Shown in pieces: positions 1 through 62,501 of a stretch of DNA of 64,000 bases (position 1 is its first letter; every line of letters begins with the position of its first letter). The DNA comes from Alligator mississippiensis. Taxonomy: Eukaryota > Chordata > Crocodylia > Alligatoridae. The stretch lies in the NCBI RefSeq assembly GCF_030867095.1, contig NC_081830.1, positions 38,254,781 through 38,318,780 of the forward strand, in the 5' to 3' direction. A program made the position numbers and the translations under genes. Below the pieces are notes generated by a model. The model searched no databases and was not told the origin of the DNA. It worked only from the letters and a program-made list of their open reading frames with translations.

Positions 1-3000
1 TGTAGGATCTGTATGGTGTCCAGTGCCAGAGCATTGCCTGCCCCCACAAGGCTTCCATTTCAACTGGGTGACTGCCTTGGCCTAACCAATTCTAGTTGCT
101 CTCTCCCAACAGATTGGGTGGGTTTAGTCCTAGATCCCCAACTAGACCAGATCTCTTACCAAGGACTCAGCCATGTACATTTGCAAGACTGGTTTTTCAG
201 CCATAAGCTCTGCTCTTTCACCTGCCCTTTGGACCTTTATAAGAAGACACTGCACTTAGGTTTCATTTTTACATGGAATGCAATGCTCTTCACATTTCCA
301 CAAAACAGCTTCAGAGTCCCCTCCTCTGTCTTGGTTAACTGAAACCGGGCACCATTAGAAATGATGCTGTCCTCCTTTCTGCTGACGAAGATAGCAAAGT
401 ACTGTTCAGACCTCCCCTACTGGCTCACCACATCTGCAGAGTTTGCCCTTGGGGGCTTTTGACTGCTCCATCCTTCCACTCAAGGTATTTTCTTTGTTTG
501 TTTTGCTCATGGTGCCACATGTCATTCAGATATCACTCAGAGCCCAAGAATCTAGCAGAAACCTACTTCATTTGTTCACTGAGTTCTAGCTGATCAGCAC
601 TGTTTAACATGAGCATCTGCAAGTGTAAGGGCTGGTTTCAACTGACTCATTCATCTTTAAAGCTCTCCCCCATCCCAGCAGTGAACAATGTCTCTTCTAT
701 GCATACGTACAGCACCCAGCATACTGGCTGTGGCCTTCACATTCTCCTGTTACTCTGGCAGTGAGGAGTTAAAGCAGTTCCAGTATTTGCACACACCTCT
801 GGGTGGCAGGATAAGCCAGCCCAACTACTGCTTGGAGGACGTTGGGTCTCCCTTTGGGAAGATTTGGGAAGAGAGAAAGCCTTGATGACATAGGCAATAA
901 TAGAGCTTGCTGCTATTTGACATCATATAATGCTGTCATCTGTTCACTTTGGCATGTCCTATATGGAAGATTTGCAGTAAGAATCGAGTCAGAGAAACCC
1001 AGAGGAAGTGTGTGTTACTGGCAACAGGCACTGTTCCTTAATATAAAAAATTGCTCTATAAATAATGGTTAAGAACTATCATGTTTCCAAGATTCAAGTA
1101 TCATCAGGGTGAGTCAGAAGGTGCTTGTAAAATCATCTGCCAAGTGCCATACAATGATTCCCCACAAGTGGATGAAGCCTTTCACTTCCTCCCCACCTCA
1201 TTCTTGGGCCTAGGGCAGCAGTCCCTGCATGCCAATGACATCTGCTGCCTGTGCAACAGCTGATGGAAGTTGTTTATTCTATATATTACAGCTGAATGTG
1301 AGACCCTCAAGATGACCATCCTGATCCCAAGAAGCAGTTTCACATCACCTTGAATTGTAGCCTTCAACTTGGTCTCCATCACTTCTGTTCTGCAGTCAAA
1401 ACATGTGATGGCAACAATCACAGCCAAAGCACATGCACTTCTTGTGGAAATGGAGCCCTACAGAGCATACAGCACACCCAGGGAGGCACCAATTTTAGAA
1501 GCAACAGCAGCTGCCAACTGAAGGTGCAAGGAGCATCTACACATGCTTTCTGCTGTTTACCAACTGGCTACAAAAGCCCCAGGCCACGTGATAGAGGTGT
1601 TGCACCCTGTTGTGTCAGAGCTTAGGATACAGATGAATCCAAGTTACTCCATCAAAATGTGCCCATGATCACTACACCCCAGAAGACTGTACAACTGAAG
1701 AGCTAAGCAAGCAAGTCCAAACTAGCCCTTGAGATGGCCCTCCAATACCAGGACCGTGGCTGGGAGAGGAAGCTTGTACTGTATCTGCTGGCTCCAGCTT
1801 TGTTTGTACCAAGGACTCATGTTACACAGTCATTTTAGTAGCTTTCCCCAGTACTAAAAAAAAATAAACCAGTTGATAAAGGTCAAGGCTATGAAAGACT
1901 CCATTTCCACTGTTTGCAGAGATCATCAAACATTAACTGGACAAGCAGTGTCTCCTCCCTGTCATGCCCCAGAAGGGGAGAGGGAAACAATCTCACAGGG
2001 ATCAGTGGGAAGTCTCCCTTGCACCACACATTCATGTGAAGAGTCTCTCAACCATCATCAAAGGAAACAAAGTCAGAGGAACCGCAATAGCAGGAGCCAG
2101 ACAGAGCACACACCATCTTAAGATGTCTGAGAAAGGTAAAGTCATGCAAAGAGGTGAGTAGGGAGAAATGCTTTTCTTCTCCTGAAGATTCAGTTAAGGA
2201 CCGTTTAATCCTTGTGGGCCAGAAGCTTCCTGCTGGGACTAGACATGGAGTCAGCAAGCCTATGCTAGAAGGATTAAAATAGGCAATAATATGAGAGGAA
2301 ACCAACAGGGTGTCCTGATCTGGAGCTCATTTGAATGCTGGCAATTAGCACAGACAGGGCCTGCTGGCCTTACCATTTCCAGAAAGACTTCAGAAAGACT
2401 TCAGAAGCTTCCTTCAAACACTTACTAATCCAGCAAGAGAGGTCTTCCCCTCACAGCTCGCTGACGCTATTGTCTTGGCCTCTGCACATGGTCAACAAGC
2501 CCGTTGGTGTGCACACAGCTGCGAGAGCTGTAGGCTGAGCAGCCCTCAGCATGGCTCAGCCATGGAATAGATGGAGTCTGCTTTGGAGAAAGATGTGAAT
2601 ATCCCATGCACGCTGATGTGCCTGTGTGTGCAGGTGCCTGTGCCAGCCTATTCCTTCCCATGTCAGTGTATGGGAAAGCCCTTCTTCAAAGCATAAGGTG
2701 AAAACTGGCAACTATAACCCCAGCCTTATAGGGGCCAAATCCTGATCCTATGGAAGTTAATGGCAAACCAATCTGGCCAAGACCTAAAACAACCTAGGAA
2801 TTAATAAGCACCAGTACACTGGGCATGAGATTTAGGGCTGTGTTGAAATGTAGGTCTGAGAGGAAGGGTGCTCTGTGCACCATGCGCAGGGCTAGAAGAT
2901 CTAGGGTCAATTCTGGCTCTGTGTGACTGTGCACAGACTCACTTACTTTTCTAGGTCTCTGCCCCCTATCAGTAACTTGGGGCACTAATCTTTTCCCCTC

Positions 3001-3348: not shown

Positions 3349-3506
3349 GCACAGCCAGAGCAGAAGCTGGGTTCAAGGTCACGACGGTGAGGAGTACCAG
3401 GGTGGTACTGGATAACACCATCTGCCCAGCAGAAATCCTCATCAATGATGGCAAGATAGTCAGCATTCTGCCCGGGAAGAGCAGAACCTATGCCAGTGGA
3501 GAGAAG
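3349..3506 (+). CDS. ALLN: ALLN exon 1 (first recognised; 5' boundary uncertain)
   Basis: This exon encodes the N-terminal beta-sandwich strand of the amidohydrolase: [19 protein letters not shown], then [14 protein letters not shown]. The 3' boundary is fixed by phase: AAG joins GTG of exon 2 only if the intron starts with GC at 3507 (GCAAGT, a GC-AG intron). The 5' boundary is a guess. A pyrimidine-rich tract ends in AG at 3347-3348, and another AG lies at 3353-3354. The only upstream codon resembling a start in frame is a TTG at 3225, so this is not taken as the initiation exon. Confidence 0.8.
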
Positions 3507-6500: not shown

Positions 6501-9500
6501 AGTGGCATTTGGCACATGCTAACAAACTCACTGCCTTGGGTGTGTTTATTGGCACACACCCAGCACCATACTTGGGATAGCAACATCGCCTATACTGTAT
6601 AATTCATGGAATGGCTGTGCCATGTCCTAGTCCTTTGATGGTGAGGGTATGCCTCATTTCATGAGGCACAGAACCAGTGTCTCTTTCTAGCCCCCAGTCA
6701 TGAACATATAGCCCTGACATGACAGCTCAGAGGTTAGTGCAGAGGAACATTTTCTAAGAAGCTCCTTCTTGCCCATGTCACTTGCATGTATCTTTTTCTA
6801 GGTTAGAAGGCCAAAGGAAACTTGTCATCATCTCCTTGACCTCTTGCATCACAAGGGCCCCTGCATTTTTGCACTTGTTAGATGAACTGAAGATGTAGAA
6901 TCAGCCTTTGCACCTCTGATTCACCCTTACCATTAATTTGCTGATGCAAATCCTGCCCATACAGATGATATCTGCCAAAGCAAAGATTTCCTTTTGCAAA
7001 TTTGGCCTTTGGTAATTACAACCATGGAATACGATTTGCATTAACACCAAATGGAAGTCTTTGCAAGGTCTAGAGCACAGGAGTAAGCTGGTGACATAGC
7101 AATGAAACAAGGATGGATTAGAATCAAATTGTCATGTCACATCAAGGAGAAGGCAGGGTAGATTTGCACCTTATAGATTAACCAATGTAGATATATACAG
7201 CACAAGCTTCAGAGACTTGAAGCTCACTTCATCAGGTGCTGTGAAAGGATTTGCAGAAAGCAGAATAAAAGGAGACAAAAAATTAGAATACAAACCACAG
7301 GGGACGGGGACAGTGGGAGGAGGTGGGAATGAGGGGCAGTGCTGGAAGAGGCAAACTAAGAAGCAGTAAAGCCATCGGAACAAAGGAGTCACTAAAGTTA
7401 ACCCAGGTAATGTGTAAGAATGCATAGTTTCCATTTAAACCATACTTAATACAGTCCAGTCTGTGAATGATTTCTTCTTCTACAATTTCCCACTCAAATC
7501 AGTTTTTAAGTTTGCTGTCTGAGAACAGGCACCTTCAGGTCAGCAATGAAGTGTCCAGGGAGGTCCAAGTGTTCTGCCAGAGGCCTACATGTCTTTCTGC
7601 AGCTGATGTCAGAGTGGTGTCCTTTATTTCTATCATGTAGGGATCACCTAGTCTGTCTAATGTAGACAGTAGAAGGGCACTGTAAGCAGGTGATGGCATT
7701 GTTTCATAGTTTCATAGTTGGTAGGGTCGGAAGGGACCTGAGCAGATCATCAAGTCCGACCCCCTGCCATGGCAGGAAAAAGTACTGGAGTCAAACGACC
7801 CCAGCAAGGTGTTCATTTAACCTCCTCTTAAAGACCCCCAGGGTAGGAGCCAGCACCACTTCACTTGGAAGTTGGTTCCAGATCCTAGCCACCCTGACAG
7901 TGAAGTAGCGCCTCCTGATGTCTAGTCTGAATCTACCCTCTGCCAGCTTGTGACCGTTATTTCTAGTCACTCCTGGTAGTGCTCAGGGGAACAGGGACTC
8001 CCCCAATGCCTGCTGGTTCCCTCTGACTAGTCTGTAACAGGCCACTAGATCCCCCCTCAGTCTTCTCTTGTGGAGGCTGAACAGGTTCAGGTCCCTTAGC
8101 CTCTCCTCGTAGGGCCTGCCCTGCTGACCCCTGATCATGCTAGTGACCCTCCTCTGAACCCTCTCCATGCTGTCCACATCCCTCCTGAAGTGCGGTGCCC
8201 AGAACTGGACGCAGTACTCCAACTGCGGTCTGACCAGTGTCGCATAGAGGGGGAGGATCACCTCCTTGGACCTGCTTGAGATGCATCTGTGGATGCAGGA
8301 CGAGGTACGGTTGGCCTTCCTGACCGCGTCCCCACACTGTTGGCCCATGTTCATTTTGGCATCAGTAATGACTTCAAGATCCTTTTCTGCCTCTGCACTG
8401 ATGCGAAGGGAGTTCCCCAGCCTGTAGGTATGCTGCTGGTTCTTCCTCCCCAGGTGCATTACCCTGCACTTGTCAGTGTTGAAACCCATCCTGTTCTCAT
8501 CTGCCCACCCCTGTAACCTGTCTAGGTCCAATTGCAGCCTATTTCTCCCTTCTAGCGTGCCCACATCCTCCCACATCTTAGTGTCATCAGCAAATTTGAA
8601 TAGGGTGCTTTTTACCCCCTTGTCCAAGTCACTGATGAAGATTTTGAACAGCGTGGGTCTGAGGACCAAGCCCTGGGGGACCCCACTGCCCACATCCCTC
8701 CAGGTCGAAAATGACCCATCCACCACCACTTTCTGGGTGCGACCCTCCAGCCAGTTAGTGACCCATTTGACTGTGTAGTTGTCGACGCCACAGTCCCCTA
8801 GTTTTTTAATGAGAATGGAGTGAGAGACAGTGTCAAAGGCCTTCCTGAAGTCCAGAAAGACTACGTCCACTGCAACCCCCGTGTCTAAGGATTTTGTAAC
8901 CTAGTCATAGAAGGCCACCAGGTTGGTCTGACAGGACCTGCCTCTAATGGACCCATGTTGGTTGCCCCTAAGCATAATCTCCCCTGCTGGCCCCTCACGG
9001 ACATGTGCCAAGATAATTCTCTCAAAAAGCTTACCCAGGACTGAGGTAAGACTAACTGGCCTATAGTTTCCTGGGTCCTCCTTCCTCCCTTTTTTGAAAA
9101 TGGGAACCACATTGGCCCTTTTCCAGTCCTCTGGCACCACACCAGAGCACCACAAGTGCTCGTAAAGCCATGCCAAGAGTCCCGCAATGACCTCTACTAA
9201 TTCCCTCAGCACTCGGGTGGAGATCATTAGGACCAGCTGATTTAAATACGTCCAGTCCCTCCAGAAGTTCCCTGACTAGATCCTCACTGACCCTAGACCT
9301 GGGTGCGCCTCACTCGGGGCCTGAGGGGGTCCCGGCAGACAGGCTGATCTGGTCCCTGCCCAGGAAAATGAAGACAAAGAAATTGTTAAATAGGTTAGCT
9401 TTATCGTCTGGTGCGACAACCAGATTTCCTAGCGTGTCTTGCAGCGGCCCCACATTACCCGGCACCTTCTTTTTACCCGCTATGTATTTAAAAAAGGACT

Positions 9501-12500
9501 TCTTGTTGTCCTTGATCCGGGTAGCTAGTCCCAGTTCCATCTTAGCCTTGGCCTTCCTGACTGCCCCCCTGCATCCCCGAGCAACCGAGGTATAGTCCTC
9601 CCTGGTGGTGGCCCCTCCCTTCCATTGGGTGTACGCCTCCTTTTTAGCTAGGAGACGTTTCTGTATGCTTTTCGTGAGCCAAGGGGGCTTTTGTGCCCTC
9701 TTGCCCCCTGTGATCCTTGTTGGGATTACCTCCCTTCGAGCTTGGAGGATTGTCTCCTTAAGGAATGACCGCTCTTCTTGGACACCCGACTCCTCTCCCC
9801 TCCGGGACCTCAGTACTTCCCCAACTATTCTTCTTACCTCATTGAAGTCTGTCATCCTGAAGTCGAGGGCTGCTGCCTTACTGCAGGCTTTTGCCAGCTT
9901 GCGCTGGTTGATCAAATCCAGCAGGCAATGATCGCTGTCACCCAGGTGGTCGAGCACCTGCAGCCCCCTCACGGGGTCGTCACCTGTGGCCAGCACCAGA
10001 TCCAACAAGGTGTTTCCCCTGGTGGGGCTGTGCTCCCCCTACGTGAGTGGTCAGACCTGGCTGACTGCTCTTCCCAGCAGATGTCTGAAAAGTTCAGGTC
10101 ACCCATGATGACCACGTCTTTTGACCTAACTACCTCCGTGAGGTGACTTAAGAATTCCCGGTCTAGCTCTTCCCCTTGGTTGGGTGTCCCGTAGTAAACC
10201 CCCACCGTTAAGTCCCTTTCCCCTTTAAGTCCCTTTATGACATTGGTGGAGTTGCAAGTAAAAGAGCTTTGGATATTATACTCCTTGTTATTAGGTCCAG
10301 TGGTGATGTGGTCTGCATTTATGTTGGGGGCCTAGAAGGCATCTAGGTCCATTGCAAGGCCTGGTGCCTTGGTGAGACTGGGAGTTGGGTAGCCTGTTGT
10401 TTGAGAGTGGTTGTTTGAGGCTAGGGAATCGAAGCCAGGACCGGTTTGTCCACATGACTCTGTTGTCCTTGTCCCAGGGTTGGTACTGTAGCGGGTCAGA
10501 GTCTGGTTCTATTGATCTGAGTGGCTACAGTTTTGGGGATTGTATTGTAGTTGTAGGAATTCCTGCTTCAGATCTTTCAGATATATACCCCATCACATCA
10601 AGACCTAGTGAGCATCCTAAGCACTTTCCCATGGGCCCAGATAAGCATTGAAGAAAGGACCATCCAGTCACAAGGCCATAGTGCCCACAATAGTATAATG
10701 CCTCTCAGTGAAGCAAATAGGGTCTGTGCTCTCCCATCCCAAGAGGCCTCAACCCCCCAGCCTCCTGCATGCAGGAAACCAGACCCTTTAAATGCAAAAT
10801 AGTCATTTAAAGATGGAGACCCTCTGGCTTTGTATTACAAGCCAAGCTGATTCTCCTTCATTTCCCTTCTCTCTGCAGGTGCTGGACGTTGGAGATCTGG
10901 TGGTTATGCCTGGAATCATAGACCCTCACATCCATGCCTGTGAGCCAGGGCACACAGTCTTGGAGAGTTACTCTTCTGCAACAAAGGCTGCAGCTGCAGG
11001 AGGCATCACAACCATTGTGGACATGCCCATGTACGGTACTAGGGAGAGGGGGAAGAGCATGTTAATACCATTCCTAGTGCATGGGAAAGTAATGGCTGGT
11101 GCTGAGGGCACAATACACACATAGATTCACCCTTGGATCTTAAAAGTTTGAGAGAAGAAGAAAGTGGCTTTTCACTTTACACAGTACACCTGAGTCCACG
11201 GGGTCTTGGACCCCTGCATGGTCTTTGCATGGCTAGTCAGCCTGTCCCAGCCCCTTCTGAACTGCACAGGTGTCTCTCAAATTCAGTGGGAGCTGGAGCA
11301 TAGCCCTTCCAGACCAGGGGTCAGATCCTCAGCTGGTGTGAAGAGTGAAGTCCTGCCAGTTTACACAAGCAGGTGTCTGGCCCCAGGACTCCAATCTGTT
11401 GGGTAGAGGAGGTGTGAGGGCACCACTCTGGTTAACTGTTCCCAAGAACTGAATTACTCTAGGTGTGAAGGCAAATGGGTACAGACTGTTAGACACCTCC
11501 CAAGTCAAGGAAACACCAGCCTTTGCTGTAAAAAGTCCTTTTATGTGCAATTGAGTGAAATCTGTTTCCAGCTTCTCTCCTGACAACCATATTTGCAGTG
11601 TGAGAACAACCTCCCTCCAGGCCTCAGCTCCAAGCTACAATGGCAATAACTATGTGGAGGAGCTCTAGGATCTTGTACCTCCACTGCCTTCAGACCCTCA
11701 GGGCTAAATGTGGTTCAGCTGCGCTCTCTAATGGCCACTTTTAGCTCCTGCAGGTATTGATGCTTTTCCAGTGGGCCAAAGGGAAATGCTTTATTAATAG
11801 ATTACTCTGAGGGATGGAGGAGGAGACACCTCCTTAGCATTGATTCTGATGTCCATTCACAGGGCTGATGACTGCTGCTCCTAAACCTTACTCAATCGGA
11901 GGGGGCCCTGCAGGAAGGGAAGTCTGTGGGGATGGTGACAAAAAGTCTGTTTTGATAGGGGGCCTGGGAAACACAACTCATATGTCAAAAGTGAGGAGTC
12001 AGGAAGAAGAATATCTGCTGGGGATTATCATTTTAAATGCGCCTCTGTTTTGATGGCTCTGGACCCCATTTTGCCTTGCCAGTCCTGCCTCCCCTCCCCC
12101 TGCCCTCTATCCCCAGCCCATTACATCATTGTTCATTCTCTCTCTCTCTTCCAGCTCTACACCCAAAAACCTACCCAGACCTCACCCAAACCAAGGTCTC
12201 CTCACCCCTCCTCACTCCAGTACTCATGGCTCTAGTCATGGACTCCATGCCAAGAAGATGTTTGCACTGGGATAACCTGTCCTATCTTTGTGCCTTCCAG
12301 GAACTGTCTTCCCCCAACCACAACTATGGCAAACTTTGATGCCAAGCTGAAGTCTGCCAGAGGACAGTGCCACGTGGATGTAGCCTTCTGGGGTGGTGTC
12401 ATCCCTGGAAACCAGGTCAGTGGTGGTTATTCAGGAATGCAATTGCACATACTTCCAGTAAGACAGGGAGCAAGGACAGAGCCCAGGTCTTGGCCACTCT

Positions 12501-15074
12501 CTGGATAATTCAAGGGCAGGGATCCAGCTGCACTATTGTTCCAAAAAGCAAAGCTCCATGGGCCAGGTGCTCAGTGCCTACCAGAAGTTCAGACCTGCTC
12601 AGCACCCACTGCCAACCCAGTATGCTGAGCAGGCTTGAAAGTGTGGTCTGGACCCAACAAAGAAATATCACTTATGAACCAAAGGTCATGACATACAGCA
12701 AGGGAAGCTGATCAGGCTAAACAGGTCTTCCTCTCAGCTGAGTTAAACACCCTGTAGGCACTCACAACAGTGATACTTACTGGTAAAACTCCCATTTGCT
12801 TCAACAGGGCAGTTAGCCTCATCTCCCTTGAAGGCTTAGAGGAGACTCTGACTTAGGTTCTTGTCCATGTTAAAGAGTCTGGGCTGGTCCAGCAAGCAGC
12901 TGTTGGAAGGCACATGCTGGTTCACTCCATCCTCAAGGTTATCAGTAGTGGAGCAGTCCAAATCAAGAGTGATCATAATAATCCTTCAATCCCGAATACA
13001 TCAGGAAAACACCTTGAGATTGTCAGTGATGGCCAAGTGAAACAGCTGCGACATGGCTATCAGTGCAAGTCAGACCTGCAGCCTGGGGCATGAAAGATTT
13101 GCCCATGGAAGGGTGCTCCAACCTTCAAAGTCAACTGGAATTTGACCATAACAAACTACTGGCTTTAGCCACTGTGAAGCAAGCTTGTTCAACAGGCATG
13201 CAAAATCACTGGAAAGGCCTGAGCTTCCCACACCCTGTGAACAGCACTCAGTGTGTCAAACATTGGCTTGAATCTGGTTTGTGTTGCTGGAACACCCTGA
13301 AGCCCTGACTGTGTGTCAGGGGCTTGATACCTTGACAACATAGAACATTACATGTGTCTCAGTTGCTTAAGTTATCTGCAGTGGGCCTGACCAGCACTTG
13401 AGCATTAGGGCTCAAGAGGCAACACCTGTAAATGCTTTGTATGGCCATCCCCATGTCCAAAGTGATACCAAAACCAGAATGAAGCCTTTTGAATTGCTGT
13501 AGGATGAGCTCCTGCCGATGCTGCAAGCTGGAGTCCCAGGGTTCAAGTGCTTCCTGACTGGATGTAGTGACAATGAGTTCCCCAGTGTCTGCCTCCAAGA
13601 CCTGCACATGGTAATGAATGAACTTGAAGGCACAGAGTGTGTTCTCTTGGTAAGCATCCCTGCCCAAGCCCCTCAATCCCGTCTCTTCTAGTCCTAGTCC
13701 CTGTTTACAGCCTCTCCCCGGACTCAACCCTCAATGACACCAGATTGGAAAAGCATCATTTTACATGCATGTAGCTTAGGCATAATTGACAGCACAAAGA
13801 AGAGGGTGGAACAGGACAGGATTGGCCTATCTGTTTAGGGTTCAGCAAGGATCCCCTACTGCATAGGTCAGGGGCTCAAAGGACAGGTGCTTCACCATTG
13901 CCTCAGACAAGCATGGAGGGAAGGCATTAGACATTCGGAATGGTATTAGATGGGCAGCTTCCTACCCCAACCACATTAACCTGCCTCACTGTTTGGCTTT
14001 GCTTTCCAGTTCCACGCAGAGCAGGATCTGGGCCAGTGGGAACCTGTGGCAGAGGGTATGTGGTAAGGACTCAGATAGGGAGTTAAGGCCATACCATAAG
14101 GCTTGTCCTCAGCTACACATCCTAAGAAAACAAATGGACCCAACTCTCATTACACCAAGGGCCTGTAACAGGCAGGGATCCCTCCTGCTCAGTCTATGGA
14201 GTCCACAGCAAACTTGTCCTCAGCCAGTCCCACCACCACCCTTCCTGAGGTCCAAGCTGCTTTTAGACAACCTCTAGCACCAATCCGGACAGCTAAACCC
14301 ACATGACTCTCTTCTGCTACCAATGCATAACAAGTTCACAGGGCCAATTTTACACTGACCTGAGCTGGACCTGCAAGGCCTAATTGTCCCTCTCCACACC
14401 CCAGCACCTACTCAACCTTCATTGGGCACTAGACACCCAACCAATCTCACCCTTGGTAATTACTGCCCAAAGGTACACCATACAGATATTTGCAGCACCC
14501 AAGCACACTGCTGCCCTTTCCCTCAGCAGACTCAACCATATTGCCCTTCAGGGTGAGGGAACCCAGACCTATCCAGCTCCACTAAATCCTAGTACAGGCC
14601 TCTAAATGACTATAAGAATTGTCCAACAGACTGTATTCTCCTCCCAGCAATCAACAGCCTCTGAATCCCTCCCTACAGCCATTAAGGCAAACATCCTCAC
14701 CTCCATCCTACTTCAGCTCACAGCCACCTGTCCTTGGCTACTTTGCTCCACAGCCTTCCCTGGTCCCCTGTGCCCCCATTGGGAGCCACCCAGTGTCATC
14801 TTCCAGGGAGCTCCTACATCATCAACTGAAAAGATACAAGTGAGCTGCCTTCCTGGTTTGCACCCCTTTATAGTCCCAGGGAGCAAAGCCCCAAGTAGGC
14901 AGACTGCCCTTAAAGGGACATTCCTGAGGACTGTAAAGGTGCATCCTTGTGCACCTAAGTGATGGGATTAGAAGGCCCCCGTCACAAGCCCCTTTAACTT
15001 CACCTGTGCAGGGTGTACACACAAGTGTGTGTGTGAGTGTGTGTGTGTGTGTGTGTGTGCATGTGCATGTGTAT

Positions 15075-15110
<36 letters not shown>

Positions 15111-18100
15111 GTTCAAGAGGCAGAAAGAAGTACATTGCAAGGAAGAGCCTGCTGGTGGTTCACAGATGACATCTCAATAGATTTAACCTTTCCTGGGTAG
15201 CTCAGCACTCCTGACACATCATGGGTCAAAGTCCCAAACAGAGCAAGCAGCTCACTAAGAACAGCAGCAAATGAGCATAAATGCCATGTGCCTCTGTATG
15301 CAAAAATATAGCTCTCTTTCCATCCTCCTCCCTGTGTCTGTGCAGACCCAGCTGAGTACAAGTCCTTCCTGGACTCCTGCCCTGATGCCATGGAAGTAGA
15401 TGCCATCCACACCATTGCTGACCTCTGCCTCCAGTACAAGTAAGAAATAGCCTGTTTACAAACTCTCCCTTTCTCAGAGAGGGGGCTGGCTGGTGGGGAG
15501 GAGGGTGTGTGGGTGCTGTGGAGACAGCAGTTTGAGTCTCTGAAGTTCCCCTCTGCAGGCCTCAATGATTTAGGTTTTAGCTGTCACTGTATTAAAAAAA
15601 AAGGGTTCTTTAGCCACTTTCCTTGCAGTGGTCACCCTGGGAATGTAAACTAATGTCAACTGATCACTGGGACCTATCCAGATCCACAGGCTCAACTGAC
15701 CAGGCTGCCCCCTGGTTCAGCAACCCACCTGGAGGCTCTGCTCTCCAGTTGCAAAAGCCAAGGAGGGAAACCACAAGCTCAGTGAAAAAGCAGTGTAATG
15801 CTCTCACAATCTCTCCTGACAGGATGCCCTGCCACATTGTTCACCTCTCCTCTGCTCAAGCCCTGCCCATCATCAGGGAGGCTCGTAAGAAGGGTGCACC
15901 ACTCACTGTGGAGACAGCACACCACTACCTCACCCTGACCTCTGAACACATCCCACCTGGAGGCACCTACTACAAGTGCCGCCCCCCTATCCGGGGCAAG
16001 AACAACCGGGTAATGGGGTGCACTGGTTGCTCCTTTGTGAAGTCTTATCTCAAAAAAATCAAATATTGTAAACATAACAAAAGTCGGGAAATGAGGACAC
16101 CAGCAATGACAGAGAAAAAGGCAACCTTTTATGAATAGACAGGAAAAATCAGCTTGGGCTAATAGGGCAGCTGCTTTAATATCTATAGTTCCCACTTTCT
16201 TTTTAGTCCTGGTGCTCAGTCTCATGCTCCAGGCTGCTCTTTAGCTCATGCTTCTGTCACCATATTGTGAATAAGGATTGCCTAGAACAATGGTTTTCAA
16301 CTGTAAACCCCTCGGGGTCCACAGACTATGTCTAAGGGGTCCATGAAAGATGACTATTATCAATCAAAAGTATGTGAATACCCACACTTATAATTCAAAG
16401 GGGTCCGCACCTCCATTTAAAATTTTTTAGGGGCCCACAAATGAAAAAAGGTTGAAAACCACTGCCTTAGAGCAAGCACGGTGCCATCTTGGGAGGCGGT
16501 TGTGAGGTGAATGTCAGAAGTAGAGGGTTGCAGCATCTAGCTGCTACATGAACAAGGCTTAAACAAAGGTTTCAGACATAGCAACAGAGACAGAGATAGA
16601 TTTGGGATGTGTGGTGGAAGGGAAAGGGGTGGGATTAGCGGTAGTCTATGGGACAGTAAGAACAGAAAGGATTGCTATATGACTACACATGTGATCAGAG
16701 GGTTTGAAGTTGGACAGAAAACTCAGGTTCGTTACACAAAGCCCCACCAGATGAATCATGTGATAGATGATGAAGACACTCAATGTTAGACGAAAGAGGG
16801 AAAGGCTAAGGTCACATCTCTAATGGGCACTGACAGGGCATGAACGACGCGTGTCCCCAGAGGCTGGTCAGGCACAGTGACCGCCCACAGGTGGAAGCAC
16901 TTTTGGCGGCAGGGGCATGGCAGCAGCAAGCGGGGAGCTCCTGCAGGCAGCCACAGTGGTGTTAGCAGTGGGGGCAGGCCAAGGTGTAGGCGGCGGTGGC
17001 AGCAGTCGGGGAGTGAACACCAACTGCCCGCAGGCAGCGTCAACATCAGTGGTGCTTTTCACAGGGGGTGCACCGCCAATCTCAGGGGGTGCACGTGCAC
17101 CCATGTGCACCCCCTACATGTTGCCAGTGTGACAGGGTGAAGAGAACGTACCGCCAAAGGAGCTGCCAGATAAGCTGTAGAGGCAGCAGGAAAGTGCAAA
17201 GTCTCTGAAGTCAAAGGAATACAGTTTCTGGAAAGATTAAGTAGTCACCAGTGTCAGCAGAGGCAGTGGGTAGCTCAAAAAGGTTATAGAGAAAGAGGCC
17301 CTTAGCTTTGCACTATTGCCAGCTCTCGTGAGTTTATATGTACTTCTGGCACATTATTCAGTTGCAATACGGGTAGGGACCTACCGAATTCATGGCGAAA
17401 GTAGAGTGAGCAATGGCTCCTTTAATCCTGCATGTTCCTCCTGCATGCACCTTGCCCTACCTCCCACTGCTGCTGGTTAGCGGAGTACCCCACCACTCCC
17501 TCCTGATCAGCAGGGAAGCTAAAACCACAATTTTAAACTTGGCACCATTTTTGTTTCCCCACCAGTCAGCAGCAAACAGCAGGGCCATCAGGGGCCCCCC
17601 AGCCAATCGGTGGCAGGAGGCAAAAACAGCACCATATTTAAAACCATAGTTTTCTCCTCCCTGCTGAACAGAAGCAAGTCACAAGTGGGTCCCCTCCACC
17701 AATCAACAGGAGGTGGGGTGCAGGGGAACCTGCAAGATTAAAAGAGCCACGGTGCACCCCATTTCCACCATGAATTTGGTAGGTCCCTAAATATGGGATA
17801 AGCAGGGATAAAAAGGAGACAACGCTGGAACTCAAGCTGTACAGAGTTTGCTTGCTTGTGTCTTCTAGTAGTTTCATAAATGTTTGCCATTTAAGAGGGA
17901 CTCTGCTCCTGGATGTCATGGCAGGATGAATCAGGAATTCTGAGTGGAATAATGATCCCTGCCTGCTAAGTGAAGCAAATCTTTGCCTGCTTTCAGAAAG
18001 CCATTCTCTAGCTTCCACAGGAGGAGGAGGAGAGCTTGATCTAGCCAGCAGTGGAGTTAACCTTTCCCTTTCTCTGGGCTCTAGGAGCAGCTCTGGGCAG

Positions 18101-20296
18101 CTCTGCAAGAAGGGCTGATTGATATGGTTGTCTCAGCACACAATCCCTGCCCACCAGACCTGAAACACCTGGATGAAGGAGATTTTTTCAAGGCCCAAGG
18201 AGGGATTTCCTCACTGCAGTTTGGTGAGATGATATGGACCGAGCAGCCTGGCTGTACTGAGTCAGGGAGATGCAGGGTATACCTACCAGACCTTAGAGTC
18301 ATCTTAGGCTCTGGGGCTGCAAGAGAAGCCAGTTCTGATACTCCTGATGATTTCATTCATTGTGCTCTGTCTATTCTGCTTTCCCACCTCCTCCTCTCTC
18401 CCCATCTAATGCTTCCCTATCCCTCCAAAGCTGAAGTGATGTCTAGCACAGCCATCTGCTTTGTTCTTTCCTCTTCATCCTCTCAGCACCAGATACAGCA
18501 TCCTGCTATTTGAGCAGCTCCCACTTATGATGGACTAGTCAGGTCACTCCTGCACATGTGGCTCTTGAGTGCTTTCTGTTTTCTTTGCCCCAGGGAAGAA
18601 GCTTGCTTCTATGTTTAGACATTAATTCCAATGTGCTGCATTGAAAGGTTTTTACTCTCGGGGAAACTGAAGGATGTGCACCTGGCACTTGGAAAGAAAA
18701 GCAGTAAGGTTTGTGCTCAGAAATTTACCCAGGGCAGGTTGGCAGAGGCATGGGGAAGAAGTTTGCACAGCATCTGCCCAATGGTTGATCATTAGTCATT
18801 GATATTAGGCCCTTTTTGGCAAAAAACAATTAATGCAGCCACAGCTTTAAAAAAAGGCTGATCAGATGAAGTATATAACTTTCCACTTTCTCAGCCTCAG
18901 AAACCATAGGCAACAGCAAGCCACATAACCAGAACCGACTCATTTAACATCTGTGACCTATGTATGCATGTCCTGACTGTTGTTGGAAACCACATGCAGG
19001 GCTCCCTCTGTTCTGGACCTCAGCAAAATCCAGGGGATTCTCCCTTCATGACCTGGTGCAACTGATGTGCACACGTCCTGCTGCTCTGAGCAGACTGGAA
19101 GACCAGAAGGGGTCACTGAGGCCAGGAATGGATGCTGATTTGGTGATCTGGGATCCGGACAAGGAGTTTGAGGTACTGATGGGGAAGGAGTTGGGCAGAG
19201 AGATGCACTTAAGGGGCATGTGAATAGGCTAAGAAAGCAGTGCAATAACAGATGGGAAAATGGAATGAGAGCTTGGCTTGAGGTGTTCTTATAAGCAGGG
19301 ATCCTGGTTTTCTCTGATTTAAAAAAAAAAATCTTCAATTTTTGGTTTTAAAAAAGTAACCCAAAATCCACATTTTTGGGTGATTAAAATGAAACACCGC
19401 TGTATATGCATCTATATAAACCAAAAATAGGGGATTTTTTTTTAATAAAAAAAACCCAGGATCCCTGCTTATAACATTCCACTGAAATGCAAACACACTG
19501 CCATAATTCATGAGAGGGCAAATCTGATGGACTTGGATCTGGAGAGGATCTTTCGGTGCCAGCTTCTTTCATCTGTGACCCATTACACTGAGATGTTACA
19601 TGAACTTCAGTTTCTTTTCCCTCTTGAGGAGGTCCAGGACGATGACATTTAAAACTGCCTTTTTTATGGAGTAGCACAGATGCTCGCAGTTCAGGATCCA
19701 TTATCGAATCCATCTAAGTGTCTCCTCTCTCAATTTTTAGGTGAAGAGAAACATGATTCACCATAAGAACAAGGTACAAAAATCGTTGACATTTTCTGTT
19801 CACATAATGCACCTCTCTTCCCCCAAGCATAATGTAACTCTTTTATATATGGTAACCTGTACCACTGCCTCCTATGTAATATGCACATTCTGTGGCTTCC
19901 ATTTCCAGGGATAGGGGTACAAAAAGGAAGGGTATCAGACACTGTTGGGATTCCAGATTCCATCTGGATTTAGTCAGGGCGCAACTAATGTTGTCCAGAA
20001 ATGTATCCCAGAGGTCTACCTTTTGGAGGTGAAAGGGTGTTCACCTTCCATGCCAGTTGTCCCAAACAGAAACTCCTGCTAAAACATTATGATTCAGACG
20101 TTTGCCTGAACTGTTTGCCATGCTTTTGTTGTAGCTAACCCCGTATCTTGGCTTCCGGCTTTGTGGAGAGGTGTTTGCTACTCTTGTACGTGGCAGATTG
20201 GCTTATCTGAAAGGGAAGTTCTCAACCAAGCCACAGGGAGATCTGCTTGTGACTCAGAGAAACACATCCATAAGAATCACCTCCCCATACTACTGA
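3349..20296 (+). CDS. ALLN: Allantoinase-like gene, 11 recognised coding exons, ATG exon not found
   Basis: Allantoinase hydrolyses allantoin to allantoate in the ureide branch of purine breakdown; it is a metal-dependent cyclic amidohydrolase. Eleven exons join in phase: 3349-3506, 10879-11030, 12301-12415, 13503-13649, 14010-14055, 15346-15439, 15823-16009, 18085-18223, 19000-19172, 19741-19773, 20135-20296. They give about 467 residues, the usual family size, with no frameshift or internal stop. Family motifs in order are the glycine/His HxH site (DPHIH), [21 protein letters not shown] with the lysine expected to be carboxylated, FHAE, HIVHLS, PPIR, and the C-terminal [12 protein letters not shown] and HHKNKLTPYLG. 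The metal-ligand Asp expected in SDHSPC is Ala (SAHNPC). The first exon has no in-frame ATG, so the start lies upstream. Family assignment is secure; catalytic function is doubtful. Confidence 0.9.
5217..5234. repeat. Short GT microsatellite
   Basis: Nine GT-type units (GGTGTGTGTGTGTGTGTG) in ALLN intron 1. Confidence 0.8.
5750..5850 (-). mobile_element. Penelope-like element 3' fragment
   Basis: Read on the minus strand it gives the phrase CACCTGATGAAGTAGGCTG, then CAAAAGCTCATG, then TTAGTCTGCC. This matches the 3' end style of sauropsid Penelope-like elements (known family trait, recognised from memory). It is only a short relic. Confidence 0.45.
7160..7701 (-). mobile_element. Penelope-like element, 3' part with decayed GIY-YIG endonuclease
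   Basis: The minus strand translates, with stops and frameshifts, to segments such as [30 protein letters not shown] and [11 protein letters not shown]. These fit the GIY-YIG endonuclease core (Y-I-x-QT, R-x-x-x-H) of Penelope-like retroelements. The 3' end near 7160-7250 has the CACCTGATGAAGTGAGCTTC and ATCTATAAGGTGC tails. The element continues at 10237 after a CR1 interruption. Confidence 0.65.
7702..10236 (-). mobile_element. CR1 LINE, 5'-truncated, antisense in ALLN intron 1
   Basis: The minus strand encodes a broken ORF2. The end of the endonuclease domain ([16 protein letters not shown]) comes first, then reverse transcriptase blocks ([46 protein letters not shown]), then the C-terminal region. 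Stops and frameshifts separate them. The 3' end is at 7702 with (CATAGTTT)-type tail repeats as seen on +. It is flanked by ATGGCATTG (7693-7701) and ATGACATTG (10237-10245), a probable target-site duplication. Confidence 0.9.
10237..10600 (-). mobile_element. Penelope-like element, 5' part of the same interrupted copy
   Basis: The minus strand reads [20 protein letters not shown], then TNV, which leads directly into the AITCLQCPS segment on the other side of the CR1. This is the linker preceding the GIY-YIG domain. Multiple stops show it is dead. The outer limit is approximate. Confidence 0.55.
10879..11030 (+). CDS. ALLN: ALLN exon 2, HxH metal-site exon
   Basis: The exon lies between CTCTGCAG and GTACGG and runs phase 0 to phase 2. 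It encodes [12 protein letters not shown] with the two metal-binding histidines at 10927-10929 and 10933-10935, then [12 protein letters not shown] and [14 protein letters not shown]. Allantoinases normally read NEPGR-T-x-WEG here. In this exon the Arg is His, the Trp is Leu and the Gly is Ser, so the substrate-proximal loop is altered although both metal ligands remain. Confidence 0.95.
12301..12415 (+). CDS. ALLN: ALLN exon 3
   Basis: The acceptor is TTCCAG and the donor is GTCAGT. The first G completes an ATG codon begun in exon 2, giving [17 protein letters not shown], then [16 protein letters not shown]. The LPPTTT and VDVAFWGG blocks are typical of vertebrate allantoinases. The exon ends in phase 0. 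Confidence 0.95.
13503..13649 (+). CDS. ALLN: ALLN exon 4, carboxylated-lysine exon
   Basis: The acceptor is GCTGTAG and the donor is GTAAGC. The exon encodes [16 protein letters not shown], with the metal-bridging lysine at 13545-13547, then [17 protein letters not shown]. An internal in-phase GTAATG at 13611 looks like a donor, but reading through it restores the 13 conserved residues that lead into FHAE of exon 5, so the downstream donor was chosen. The [10 protein letters not shown] segment corresponds to the LQGTGSVLL-type strand of the family. Confidence 0.93.
14010..14055 (+). CDS. ALLN: ALLN exon 5 (46 bp)
   Basis: A short exon between CTTTCCAG and GTATGT. It encodes [15 protein letters not shown] plus one base. 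The His of FHAE (14013-14015) is the third metal-ligand histidine. The length leaves phase 1, which the next exon completes to Asp. Confidence 0.9.
15021..15109. repeat. Compound GT/CA microsatellite in ALLN intron 5
   Basis: A GT run is followed by GCATGTGCATGTGTATGC and then a CA run of about 16 units. The two halves are reverse complements, so the repeat can fold into a hairpin. Confidence 0.9.
15346..15439 (+). CDS. ALLN: ALLN exon 6
   Basis: The acceptor is TGTGCAG and the donor is GTAAGA. It encodes [20 protein letters not shown], then [12 protein letters not shown]. The pattern Y-x-x-FL-x-S-x-P-x-x-MEVDAI is the family's loop before the His ligand of exon 7. Phase 1 in, phase 2 out. 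Confidence 0.95.
15823..16009 (+). CDS. ALLN: ALLN exon 7, His ligand exon
   Basis: Encodes [20 protein letters not shown], then a block with [16 protein letters not shown], then [14 protein letters not shown]. The His of HLSS (15842-15844) is the fourth metal-ligand histidine. HHYL and PPIR are conserved substrate-side motifs; the residue before PPIR is Arg, where related enzymes usually have Cys or Ser. The acceptor is CTGACAG and the donor is GTAATG. Confidence 0.95.
16288..16464. mobile_element. hAT-type non-autonomous element, ALLN intron 7
   Basis: 177 bp with terminal inverted repeats CAATGGTTTTCAA and TTGAAAACCACTG. The flanks GCCTAGAA (16280-16287) and CCTTAGAG (16465-16472) look like a degraded 8-bp target duplication, the hAT hallmark. 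The interior GGGGTCC repeats resemble Charlie-type MITEs. Confidence 0.7.
16828..17129 (-). mobile_element. Non-autonomous DNA element, relative of 34580-34893
   Basis: Ends CACTGACAGGG on the left and ACATGTTGCCAGTG on the right. Read in reverse it opens CACTGGCAACATGTAGGGGG and shares the GTGCACCCCCTG motifs with the copy at 34580. The middle is GC-rich with GGCAGC repeats. The superfamily is not determined and no clear target duplication was seen. Confidence 0.5.
17374..17789. mobile_element. hAT-type non-autonomous element with TAGGGACC termini
   Basis: 416 bp. The ends TAGGGACCTACCGAATTCAT and ATGAATTTGGTAGGTCCCTA are inverted repeats. The flanks AATACGGG (17366-17373) and AATATGGG (17790-17797) are an 8-bp duplication with one mismatch. 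No coding content. Confidence 0.8.
18085..18223 (+). CDS. ALLN: ALLN exon 8, metal-ligand Asp replaced by Ala
   Basis: Encodes [20 protein letters not shown], then [14 protein letters not shown] and GGISSLQFG. Active allantoinases have SDHSPC; here the codon at 18136-18138 is GCA (Ala). In E. coli AllB this Asp (D315) is both a metal ligand and the catalytic base. The downstream AWGGI motif also reads AQGGI. Reading frame, splice sites (CTCTAG, GTGAGA) and flanking residues are otherwise intact, so this is not a frame error. Confidence 0.95.
19000..19172 (+). CDS. ALLN: ALLN exon 9
   Basis: Encodes [20 protein letters not shown] and then [20 protein letters not shown]. The PGxDADLV strand marks the return to the C-terminal beta-sandwich of amidohydrolases. 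The acceptor is CATGCAG and the donor is GTACTG; phase 1 in, phase 0 out. Confidence 0.95.
19289..19474. mobile_element. Palindromic MITE with TTATAA ends, ALLN intron 9
   Basis: 186 bp. The ends read TTATAAGCAGGGATCCTGG and CCAGGATCCCTGCTTATAA, perfect inverted repeats of 19 bp that continue imperfectly through A/T-rich arms. It is a non-autonomous DNA transposon of undetermined superfamily; TTATAA may be the target duplication. Confidence 0.75.
19741..19773 (+). CDS. ALLN: ALLN exon 10 (33 bp micro-exon)
   Basis: Eleven codons, [11 protein letters not shown], flanked by TTTTTAG and GTACAA. IHHKNKLTPY is the family's conserved segment across this junction, which supports the micro-exon despite its size. 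Confidence 0.92.
20135..20296 (+). CDS. ALLN: ALLN exon 11 (terminal) with stop
   Basis: Begins [20 protein letters not shown], continues with RLAYLKGKF and ends ITSPYY followed by TGA at 20294-20296. The acceptor is GTTGTAG. A C-terminal 'G-xx-ATxxRG-xxxY' strand is standard for allantoinase and dihydropyrimidinase relatives. Confidence 0.93.
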   Translation, partial: LTPYLGFRLCGEVFATLVRGRLAYLKGKFSTKPQGDLLVTQRNTSIRITSPYY

Positions 20297-28841: not shown

Positions 28842-31800
28842 GTTTCATAGATTTAATAGACATTAGGGCTAGAAGGGACCTCGGAAGGTCATCAGGTCCA
28901 GCCCCCTGCCCCAGGGGCAGGAAGTCAGCTGGGGTCAAAGGATCCCATCAAGATAAATGTCCAAACATTTCTTAAAAGAGTCCAGAGTAGGTGCTTGCAC
29001 CACCTCTGGAGGGAGTCTATTCCAGGCCTTGGGGGCTTGGACAGTAAAGTTTTTCCTTATGTCCAGCCTAAAACAGTCTTGGAAGAGTTTGTGACCATTA
29101 GACATCATTATCCCTCGGAGTGCTTTGGTGAACAAGCATTCCCCCAGATCCTGATGCATACCCCTTATGTACTTATCAGCTGCCACCAGATCACCCCTGA
29201 GCCTGCGCTTTTCCAGGCTGAAGAGTCTCATGGCTCTCAGCCTCTCATCATAAGGCCTGTTCTCTTGCCCTCTGATCATGCACATGGCTCACCTCTGGAC
29301 TCTCTCAAGCTTCTCCACATACTTGAATTGTGGAGCCCAAAATTGGATGCAGTACTCCAGCTGTGGCCTACCAAAGCTGAGTACAGCAGGAGAATGACAT
29401 CCTGAGATTTGCTTGAGAAGCATCTATGGATGCTAGCCAGAGTTTTGTTTGCTTTACCAGCTGTGACTTCGCATTGGTGGCTCATGTTCATCTTGTGGTC
29501 AGTCATGACCCCCAAGTCTCTTTCGACCATGGTGCTAGCGAGCGTAGCACTGCCAAGCCTATCAGCATGCTGAGGTTTTTTTTTCCCCAAGGTGGAGTAC
29601 CTTGCATTTTTCCGTATTGAAGGTCATCAGGTTTATATCCACACTTTCTAAGCCTATCTAGGTCAGCCTGGATCACCAGCCTATCCTCAGGTGTGGACAC
29701 TCTACCCCAAAGTGTAGTGTCATCGGCAAACTTGGCCAGTCCACTTCTGAAACCAGTGTCCATGTGGTTAATAAAGACATTGAAGAGAACAAGTCCAAGG
29801 ATGGAGCCTTGGGGGACACCACTGGTCACGGAGCACCATGATGATTCACTTCCATTGACTACCACGCTTTGAGCCAACTCCCCAGCCATCAGACTGTGGT
29901 GTAGCTGAGGCCCCAGTCGGCTAATTTTTCCATGAGGAGATAATGGGACACCAGATCAAAGGCTTTTTTGAAGTCCAGATATATTATGTCAATCTCTTCT
30001 CCCTTGTCCAGGTGATATGTCACATGATCATAGAAAGAGATGAGATTGGTCAGGCAAGACCTACCCACAACAAACCCATGCTGGCTGTTCCTCAGGATGT
30101 TGCCATCAGCCACCTTGTCGAGAATGGTCTCTTTGATAATTTTTTCTAGAATCTTTCCAGGGATTGAGGTCAAACTGACTGGCCTGTAGTTCCCCAGATC
30201 TACTTTCCTCCCTTTCTTGAAGATGGGCACCACATTGGCCTTCTTCCAATCTTTGAGTACTTCACCTGAGCGCCACATGTTTTTTAATATCTTTGCCAGT
30301 GGCTGGGCCATGATGCCTGCCGGGTCCTTAAGTACTCAGGGGTATAATCTGTCAGGACCAGCTAACTTGAAGGTGTCCCGCTTCTCAGGGTGTTCCTTTA
30401 TAAGGTCTACGCTGATGCTGGGTATAAATTCACCTTCAGCCTGGCCGTCCCACATCATGCTAGGCAGGGTGGTCCCTTTGGGCTGATGGAAAACCAATGC
30501 AAAGTACCCATTAAGCAGGTTGGCTTTTTCCTGGGAGTCGACTGTCAGGTGTCCCATTTGGTTTATCAGGGATCCAATGTTACCCTTGCTTTTCTTCCAA
30601 TTCCCCACATATCTGAAAAAGGACTTGTTACTGTCCTTGATATGTGTAGCCAGTTGAAGTTCAGTTTGCATCCTACAGATACAGACCAGTGCAAAATATT
30701 CCTCCTTTGTGGTGATTCCTGTCTTCCATCCTTTATAAGCCTCTCTTTTTAGGTGTAGGAGGTCCACAAGTTCCCTGCTGAGCCAAGGGGGCTGCTGTGC
30801 CCTTTTGCTACCTTTCCTCCGAGATGGGATGGACATCCCTTGTGCTTCCAGGATCGCTCCCTTAAGAAGCAACCACTCCTCTTGGACTCCCCTCCCTGTC
30901 AAGTCATGGCCCCATAGGGCCTTGACAACGAGCCTCCTGAGCTTATCAAAGTCAGGTTTCCTAAAGTCGAGGACTTCTGCATTGCTGACTGACTTACAAT
31001 GAATAGTAAAAGTGATCAGCTCGTGGTCACTGTCTCCCAGCTTTCCTTCAATTCTTAGGTTGCTGACTAGATCATCCCCTTTAGCCAGTACCAGATCCAG
31101 CAGCACTTTACCTCTTGTTGGTCCATAGACTTCTTGAGTCCGGTAGAGCTTGTCCACGCACATGAGGAAGCTTTGTGACCATTTGGATTTGGCTGAGTGC
31201 TCTTCCCATGAGATGTCGGGGTAGTTGAAGTCTCCCATGACAACCATGCACCAAGAGTGTGCAGTCTCAGCCAGTTCCCTGGCGAATTCCTGGTCGAGCT
31301 CTTGTTCCTGGTTTGGAGGTTTGTAGTAGACTCCTACCATTGTGTCACCTGTGCCACATTCCCCACATATTTTAACCCAGAGGGTCTCTGGTCATCCTCC
31401 CTGGGTGCCAATGTCAGCCTGCAGGAACGTGTAGCTTTCCTTGACATAGAGAGCCACACCCCCACCCCTTTTTTCCACATGATCCCTCCTGTACAGGGTA
31501 TAGCCATCTATACCTGTGCCCCAGTCATAGGTGAAGTCCTACCAGGTCTGCATTATCCCTATGAGATCATAGTTATTCTTGCTTAGCAGGAGGACCAGTT
31601 CCTTCTGTTTCTTCCCCAAGCTCCTGGCACTGGTGTACAGACACATAAGCATCCCATTGGAAGCCATAGGCTTCGTTGCACTCCCAGGAGGACACTGTTC
31701 CAGAGCTGGGCAGTCGAAAGTGTTCTTTAGGTGAGGTCCTAGGAGGACAATACCACATAGTGCCTTGTGGGATTGTCTGTACCGGTGAGGGCTCGGAGTG
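28842..31800 (-). mobile_element. CR1 LINE, long intergenic copy
   Basis: The minus strand carries most of ORF2. An N-terminal endonuclease fragment (LYTSARSLGKKQKELVLLLS) is followed by a 334-residue open stretch ending at 30336 (VVMGDFNYPDISWEEHS, LGDSDHELITF), then RT fragments ([40 protein letters not shown]) and the C-terminal end. Frameshifts divide them. The 3' end at about 28842 differs from the other copies, so it may be a separate subfamily. The 5' limit is approximate. Confidence 0.88.
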
Positions 31801-32263: not shown

Positions 32264-34520
32264 TTTATAAATTCATAGATTCATAGATTGTAGAGTCAGA
32301 AGGGACCACAATGGATCATCATGTCTGACCCCCTGCCCCTGGCAGGAAAGAAGACCGAGGTCAGATGACCCCAGCCAGGTGGCTATCTAGTCTCTTCCTG
32401 AAGACCTCCAAGCTAAGTGAAAGCACCACCTCTCTTGGACGCCCATTCCAGATCCTGGCCACCCTTACTGTGAAAAATTTCTTCCTAATATCTAACCTAA
32501 ATCCACTCTCAACTAGTTTACACCCACTATTCCTAGTCACTCCCTGGGGCGCCCTAGTAAACAGCGCATCACCTATCCCCCGTTGACCTCCCCTAATAAG
32601 TTTATAGGCAGCCACAAGATCTCCCCTCAGCCGTCTCTTGTGAAGGCTGAAGAGATTCAGCTCTCTCAACCTCCCCCCGTAGGCCACTAATTATGCAAGT
32701 GACCCTCCTCTGGACCCTCTCCAGATTCTCCACATCCCTCTTGAAGTGTGGCGCCCAAAACTGGACATAGTACTCCAACTGCGGCCTGACCAGTGCTGCA
32801 TAGAGGGGGAGCATCACCTCCTTTGATCTATTAGTCGTGCACCTGCTAATGCATGACAAGGTGTGATTGGCCTTGTTGATGGCCTCGTTACACTGCCGGC
32901 TCATGTTCATCTTGGAGTCAGTTATGACTCCAAGATCCCTCTCTGCCTCCGAGCTGCTGAGAAGGTCACTCCCCAACCTACAGGTGTGCTGGGGATTCCT
33001 CCTTCCCAGGTGGAGTACCTTACATTTATCTTTATTAAATTGCACCCTACTTCTCTCTGCCCATTGATCCAACCTGTCCAGGTCAGTCTGAATCTGCTCC
33101 CAGCCCTCTGGTGCACTAACTTTGCCCCATAACGTGGTACCATCAACGAACTTGGAGAGGGTGCTCTTCACATCCTCATCCAAATCACTGATGAAGATAT
33201 TAAATAATATGGGTCCGAGGACCAAACACTGTGGGACCCCACTGCCCACCTCCCTCCAGGCCAAGAAGGAACCATCCACCACCACTCTCTGGGTATGGTC
33301 CCTAAGCCAGTTGGCCACCCACCTGACCATATAGGCGTCCACTCCACAGTCTGCTAGCTTCCCAATGAGGATAGGGTGTGAGACTGTGTTGAAGGCCTTC
33401 CTAAAGTCCAGGAAGATGACATCAGCCTCAGCTCCCACATCCAGGCAGTGTGTGCCCTGATCATAGAAGACTACAAGGTTTGTCAGGCAGGATCTACCTG
33501 TGACAAACCCGTGCTGGTTTCCCCTCAGCATTGTTTCCCCTGCTGGGCCTGCACAAATGTGTTCTTTGATTATTTTCTCTAGAATTTTCCCAGGGATAGA
33601 GGTAAGACTGGCTGGCCTGAAGTTACCCGGCTCATCTCTTCTCCCTTTCTTGGAAACGGGCACCACATTGGCCCTTCTCCAGCCTTCAGGGACCTGGCTG
33701 GAGCACCACAAGTGTTCAAATAGTTGTGCCGGCGGCTCAGCTATGACACTGGCCAATTCTTTCAGCAGCCGTGGATGGAGGTCATCCGGGCCTGCTGACT
33801 TGTACCCATCCAGCTCTTCCAGGAGCTCCTTAACTATTTCAGAACTAACCATAGGCGGACTGGTGCTATGTGGACATCTGTCAATGATCGAGGTAGGGGA
33901 ATTGGCTTGGTCGGTATTTAGAAATACTGAAGCAAAGAACTAATTGAAGAGCTCTGCTTTATGCCCTGCGTCAACCACCAACTGTCCTGATTTGTCCTGC
34001 AGGGGCCTTTTGTTGCTCTGAGCTTTCCTTTTGCCTGCTATATACCCGAAGAAGGACTTTTTATTGTCCTTGATTGTTGAAGCCAGCCTGAGCTCAAGCC
34101 CCACCTTGGCCTGTCTAACTAATTCCCTACAATAACACGCCATGGAGATATATTCCTCCTTGGTGGCTGCCCCCTGCTTCCATTGCCTATACATCTCTTT
34201 CTTTGCCCCTAGACTCTCCTGGAGTTCCCTGTTCAGCCAAGGGGGCTTTTTTGCCCCCTAACCTCCCTTCCTACATAATGGGATAGACTCCTTTTGAACC
34301 CCAAGGATCACTCCTTTGAGATACCTCCAACCCTCCTGGACCCCCATTTACTCTACATTCTTGAGTTGCATCCCCTCACTAACTAGCCTTCTAAGCTTGC
34401 TAAAGTTGGCCCTTCTGAAGTCCAACACCTTAGCCCCACTAGTTACTTTACCCACCCTTCGCTGGATAGTGAACTCGACCAAGTGATGGTCACTATCTCC
34501 CAGGCTACCGTGAACTCGCA
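32264..34520 (-). mobile_element. CR1 LINE inserted in an older CR1
   Basis: The minus strand has a 416-residue open frame (33852 to 32602) covering [52 protein letters not shown]. The catalytic FADD box reads FVDG, so the enzyme is dead. The C-terminal region lies in a separate frame (32361-32687). The copy is 5'-truncated before the endonuclease. The 3' tail at 32264 shows TTCATAGA repeats on +. Confidence 0.9.

Positions 34521-40183: not shown

Positions 40184-62501
<22,318 letters not shown>

Follow-up and report, generated by a model that had tools for sequence, protein, structure and literature searches.

The allantoinase gene (ALLN) of Alligator mississippiensis raises the question of what an open gene encodes when its product lacks a metal-binding residue of the enzyme after which it is named. 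The stretch analysed, referred to here as the window, comprises 64,000 nucleotides (assembly GCF_030867095.1, contig NC_081830.1, positions 38,254,781 to 38,318,780 of the forward strand), in which ALLN is read on the + strand as 12 coding exons (2123-20296) encoding 470 residues without an internal stop. An initial annotation of this DNA had singled out positions 18136-18138, where the motif reads SAH in place of SDH, and had proposed that allantoinase activity was lost without ordinary pseudogenisation, the protein being kept for a non-catalytic or different role. Comparison of ALLN proteins across vertebrates suggests that the gene probably became a pseudoenzyme once, on the sauropsid stem, and was kept for a non-catalytic role.

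Loss of a metal-binding aspartate and four further residues in alligator ALLN

Positions 18130-18150 of the window read GTC TCA GCA CAC AAT CCC TGC (V-S-A-H-N-P-C), and the GCA at 18136-18138 (+ strand), codon 320 of 470, aligned with D315 of E. coli AllB (chain 8hfd), bearing out the substitution. The Asp at this site serves as a proton shuttle in this family. In the bacterial enzyme, D315 is described as a zinc ligand (PMC9863593). As the initial annotation had also stated, the other five of the six metal ligands (H59, H61, Kcx146, H186 and H242) are present in the window, and its 11 exons are all open, an inferred first exon of 13 bases bringing the total to 12. Little weight attaches to its remark that two base changes separate GAC from GCA, since Asp to Ala plus a silent third-position change suffices. 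Beyond that annotation, four further substitutions were found (Cys for the usual Asn at Ec63, His for R67, Asn for S317 and Gln for W332), all at positions invariant in 100 non-sauropsid sequences.

Active-site residues lost in all sauropsid clusters

Protein collections were searched twice, with the window protein and with an alignment of 15 reptile sequences, and the best 120 matches of each search held the same 20 sauropsid clusters, each with several members, of which one representative was examined. These clusters cover 17 named species (Alligator sinensis, Terrapene, Pelusios, Chelonoidis, Gekko, Hemicordylus, Anolis, Lacerta, Varanus, Pogona, Elgaria, Rhineura, Salvator, Phrynosoma, Sceloporus, the python Liasis, and Sphenodon) and one further sequence that groups with Gekko. 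The 100 non-sauropsid sequences came from the first best-120 list and included fish, sharks, lungfish, coelacanth, amphibians, marsupials and platypus, some being unnamed. In the aligned proteins, the D315 site was Ala in 20 of 20 sauropsid clusters and Asp in 100 of 100 other sequences, and no sauropsid with Asp there was found among the best 120 matches listed. The change is therefore not a crocodilian event, being common to all 20 clusters; the proposed loss of activity without ordinary pseudogenisation is supported as a reading of the sequence, with its original scope of one species and one residue too narrow. The other four residues, invariant in the 100 other sequences, were likewise kept in none of the 20 clusters: S317 is replaced by Asn, Thr, Val or Arg, W332 mostly by Gln, R67 mostly by His and the Asn at Ec63 by Cys or Tyr. 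The replacement residues themselves recur (Ala in 20/20, Cys in 18/20, His in 18/20 and Gln in 17/20 clusters).

For the comparison of sites, two additional models of species already represented (P0009 and P0032) were removed from the 20 clusters and the window was added, giving 19 sauropsid rows; a column counted as conserved when a single residue was shared by at least 98% of the 100 non-sauropsid sequences (n=164). Five of these columns, E. coli positions 63, 67, 315, 317 and 332, were lost in all 19 rows. All five fall in an active-site set of 29 columns based on PMC9863593 (loops 58-67 and 141-165, the six ligands, and the docking contacts N94, Q168, S317 and W332), compared with none of the 135 other columns (Fisher p 1.3e-4, the site tests treating alignment columns as independent). 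S317 and W332 were retained as pocket residues, at some cost to confidence in the statistics, because both lie close to the metal ligand along the chain and that study names them as docking contacts. Columns lost in at least 14 rows numbered 9 of 29 in the active-site set and 2 of 135 elsewhere (W70 and V246). As a control, the 151 columns conserved across 94 non-amniotes were scored in six mammals; a single column was lost in all six and three were lost in one or more, and none of these belongs to the active-site set.

A probable single origin on the sauropsid stem

In a maximum-likelihood tree of 45 proteins, a fully supported branch (100/100) separated the 19 sauropsid rows from all other sequences; six mammals formed their sister group (amniotes 97/94), and amphibians came next. 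Within sauropsids, crocodilians and turtles grouped together (93/80), as did Sphenodon and squamates (93/85), so that relations within amniotes matched the accepted species tree; contrary to the species tree, two cartilaginous fishes lay nearer tetrapods than lobe-fins do (85/82). The most natural reading is that the sauropsid copies are orthologues and that the five changes arose together on the sauropsid stem. The window gene itself is the orthologue of vertebrate allantoinase and single-copy as far as searched: a 46-residue peptide from exon 9 gave one match only in the 2.35-Gb assembly. On this single match the idea that a further, catalytic gene exists elsewhere in the assembly was rejected, although a more distant copy could escape such a peptide search.

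Constraint outside the pocket

Relative to the non-amniote state, the window protein was changed at 9 of 27 conserved pocket sites and at 8 of 124 other conserved sites; at the same sites, six mammals were changed at 0 of 27 and at 1-2 of 124 each. With the four docking contacts removed from the set, the window figures were 7 of 23 versus 10 of 128 (p 0.005). The average rate of the protein since the amniote node predicts that 31% of sites would have changed, with which the pocket (33%) agrees; the other conserved sites reached 6.5% versus this 31% (P 2e-11), or versus 20.5% expected on the crown path only (P 1.3e-5). Measured from the amniote node, root-to-tip length was 0.37 in the window and ranged over 0.30-0.60 among the other sauropsids and over 0.29-0.41 among the six mammals. 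No stop codon has arisen on the path from the sauropsid node, compared with 4.3-5.3 expected of an unconstrained sequence given the missense changes (P 0.005-0.014); this P was taken from the window lineage alone because the collections list intact proteins, and it carries a bias in that the window gene was itself noticed as an open gene. The site contrasts and the stop-codon expectation took the place of dN/dS, this genome being the only reptile DNA analysed. Two features expected of a pseudoenzyme, lost catalytic residues and a constrained frame and fold, were found in the sequence, with a strength that depends on how the pocket is defined.

An intact coding sequence on a contig of 2,143 bases, the one that groups with Gekko, is probably a spliced transcript (mRNA), since the contig is too short for a gene spread like ALLN in the window; its source label 'lgn' presumably denotes assembled public reads. 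The protein nearest to that of the window is an allantoinase-like protein of A. sinensis (P0001), with 6 differences over the 466 residues 5-470. Its AlphaFold model had a mean pLDDT of 71.2, compared with 85.3 for platypus (both modelled with the same 40 sequences), with some active-site loops less confident and a long N-terminal extension resembling read-through. The barrel is retained in this predicted model, and no more was drawn from the comparison. In a fold search with the same model, the closest solved folds were allantoinases, and CRMPs were among the structural neighbours.

The metal site differs between lineages

Five of the six ligands are kept in the window, in A. sinensis and in three turtle rows. 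K146 is retained in the window, A. sinensis and turtles and is Gln, Gly or Leu in 14 of 14 lepidosaur rows, being absent from all 15 lepidosaur clusters and all 13 squamate rows (the Leu of Sceloporus falls in an odd stretch of its protein model). H242 is replaced by Asn in 11 of 19 sauropsid rows, all of them squamate (11 of 13 squamate rows), and remains His in two gekkotan rows and Sphenodon; H61 is Asn in Gekko, and H186 is missing in Sphenodon and Salvator. Because squamates lack K146 and mostly lack H242, a role common to all sauropsids cannot require the full metal site.

Weighing the explanations

Several observations weigh against a pseudoenzyme kept by selection since the sauropsid stem. 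The active-site set was picked after the changed sites were known, and from the literature rather than from measured distances; without its four docking contacts, the contrast in columns lost in all rows weakens to 3/25 versus 2/139 (p 0.026), and with only the six ligands it loses significance (1/6 versus 4/158, p 0.17). Our confidence in this reading was reduced slightly because the set was chosen post hoc and smaller sets gave weaker contrasts. Constraint on the fold has been relaxed too, each sauropsid row having 7-16 changed fold sites where mammals have 1-2, and in Chelonoidis the difference between pocket and fold was not significant (p 0.13). By eye, the models of Chelonoidis (P0006, P0009) and Sphenodon (P0024) lack the exon preceding the HIVH motif and that of Varanus lacks a short late exon, and the models of Salvator and Sceloporus have odd ligand regions; these missing exons and odd regions may be annotation faults or decay. 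No bird or advanced-snake ALLN was present in either best-120 list, which are two match lists and not a genome survey. Metal binding, judging from the ligands kept, may still be possible in crocodilian and turtle ALLN. In a mononuclear dihydroorotase, moreover, two beta-site His residues are reported to be removable without effect, while their removal abolishes activity in binuclear members (PMC3880350); because of this tolerance, D315, K146 and the pocket residues carry the argument rather than H242.

If the gene had instead been functionless since uricotelism arose, surviving through slow decay alone, the greater change at fold sites than in mammals, the exon missing from the Chelonoidis and Sphenodon models and the gap for birds and advanced snakes in both lists would be expected. 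We consider this unlikely, though it deserves a hearing, in view of the reading frame and splice sites, both intact in this gene, the 8 of 124 fold sites changed where an average rate predicts 20-31%, the zero stop codons, and the recurrence of Ala in every cluster and Gln in 17 of 20. That recurrence, extending to Cys and His in 18 of 20 clusters each, would also suit a changed enzyme, in which metal is still bound in crocodilians and turtles, with their five ligands, and another substrate is hydrolysed by way of the new pocket Cys, His and Gln. Such an enzyme seems a rather poor prospect, since K146 is absent from 13 of 13 and H242 from 11 of 13 squamate rows, and the Asp that was lost would have served as both metal ligand and proton shuttle. 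Of the two roles raised by the initial annotation, the non-catalytic one is the best inference, and a different catalytic one is less likely given the squamate loss of K146 and, in 11 of 13 rows, of H242.

That ALLN is still an allantoinase, with Ala tolerated at the Asp site, appears very improbable: the five ligands in the window and the 477.2 bits scored by the A. sinensis protein, above the NCBIfam allantoinase cut-off of 357.85, speak for it, but 20 of 20 sauropsid clusters jointly lack five residues that never vary in the 100 other sequences, K146 is missing from 15 of 15 lepidosaur clusters, and the pathway is reportedly broken upstream (PMC10517255). An error of assembly or annotation is hardly credible, nothing having been found in its favour; at 18136-18138 an assembly error was ruled out by the Ala carried by A. 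sinensis and all other sauropsid clusters (20/20). A pseudoenzyme of sauropsid-stem origin, constrained outside its pocket, is on balance the explanation we favour.

A proposed course at the turn to uricotelism

On this account, allantoinase would have become redundant when uricotelic sauropsids ceased making allantoin, and, with substrate scarce, the pocket would have been free to degrade while the folded protein persisted. Allantoin hydrolysis would thereby have been lost from sauropsid ALLN, and the retained role would use the folded barrel, or oligomer or surface contacts, and not the old active site. Sauropsids are expected to form little allantoin enzymatically because OHCU decarboxylase is reported to be absent from them in PMC10517255, which gives the transition to uricotelism an age of more than 300 million years; the name allantoinase does not occur in the text of that paper (count 0). 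Further along the pathway, five matches to allantoicase (PF03561) lie close together in the same genome, one of which (36054118-36054255) holds a TAA that may be an exon end or a lesion. Our literature search, which reached few subscription papers, found no account of reptile allantoinase losing its active site. A survey of purine genes in birds and reptiles by Keebaugh and Thomas in 2010 may report the allantoinase gene as retained.

The same paper that reports the missing decarboxylase also describes CRUOX, a cysteine-rich reptilian uricase repurposed in skin, whose co-option is proposed to have accompanied the transition to uricotelism (PMC10517255). Like sauropsid ALLN, CRUOX belongs to this pathway and has persisted in sauropsids although its metabolic function is gone. 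It differs in that it is reported to retain weak activity, to be strongly enriched in cysteine and to be present in chicken (PMC10517255), whereas no bird ALLN appeared in the best-120 lists. Any cysteine enrichment of ALLN is weak and not of the CRUOX kind: the aligned core holds 15 Cys in the window and 9-19 in the 20 sauropsid clusters, compared with a mean of 12.05 (SD 2.17, range 7-16) in the 100 others. There may be close to an even chance that two urate-pathway enzymes were repurposed at the origin of uricotelism, uricase and a single-copy allantoinase, the latter non-catalytic, under selection and without duplication in the reptile ancestor, and perhaps later lost in birds.

Relation to known families and to automatic annotation

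Window ALLN resembles bacterial AllB and other vertebrate ALLN proteins (TIGR03178, EC 3.5.2.5) as an orthologue with the same barrel fold, a similar length and four His and one Lys ligands, and differs from them, with the 20 sauropsid clusters, in the loss of the Asp ligand and four invariant residues. The CRMP (DPYSL) proteins are dihydropyrimidinase-related and non-enzymatic, having the cyclic amidohydrolase fold without catalysis. They thus share with sauropsid ALLN the fold and, as predicted here, the want of catalysis, and differ in being a separate paralogous family, whereas sauropsid ALLN is a changed orthologue with no duplicate seen in the exon-9 peptide search. Membership of the CRMP clade was rejected: the best matches of the A. 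sinensis protein in sequence and fold are allantoinases, CRMPs ranking lower.

Against the TIGR03178 profile (cut-off 357.85 bits) the proteins of A. sinensis, Elgaria and Liasis scored 477.2, 455.4 and 435.2 bits, and that of platypus 540.3. Because reptile proteins exceed this cut-off, automatic naming keeps calling them allantoinase, and pathways reconstructed automatically would attribute allantoin breakdown to reptiles. If the proposed history is true, an entire clade of vertebrates carries an orthologue turned pseudoenzyme, no spare copy having been seen, in parallel with the co-option already published for uricase, and the fate of the urate pathway at the turn to uricotelism becomes directly testable with recombinant proteins.

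The ALLN gene model and other features of the window

All ALLN exons lie on the + strand and are bounded by AG acceptors and GT donors, with one exception after exon 2 (3355..3506), where a GC donor (AAG|GCAAGT, at 3507-3508) stands in place of GT. The inferred first coding exon of 13 bases (2123..2135, ATGTCTGAGAAAG|gtaaag) supplies the ATG of MSEK..., and its phase fits the next exon; several turtle and lizard orthologues likewise start MS-K. Residues 1 to about 71 of the public A. sinensis protein (P0001) are probably a read-through of sequence preceding exon 2, with the N terminus mis-annotated. Exon 3 (10879..11030) carries the retained ligands H59 and H61 together with the changes of Ec63 Asn to Cys, R67 to His and W70 to Leu. 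Exon 4 (12301..12415) is followed by exon 5 (13503..13649), in which the K146 position is still Lys, exon 6 (14010..14055) with the H186 equivalent, exon 7 (15346..15439) and exon 8 (15823..16009) with the H242 equivalent. Exon 9 (18085..18223; AG acceptor, GT donor), counted as exon 8 in the initial annotation, holds the changes at D315, S317 and W332. The gene closes with exons 10 (19000..19172), 11 (19741..19773) and 12 (20135..20296), the last ending in TGA.

Judged by eye only, long open frames on the - strand of the window resemble the reverse transcriptase and endonuclease of LINE-type (CR1-like) retrotransposons, and are located at 7986-10038, 29506-31391, 32605-33939, 41951-44579 and 47329-49913.

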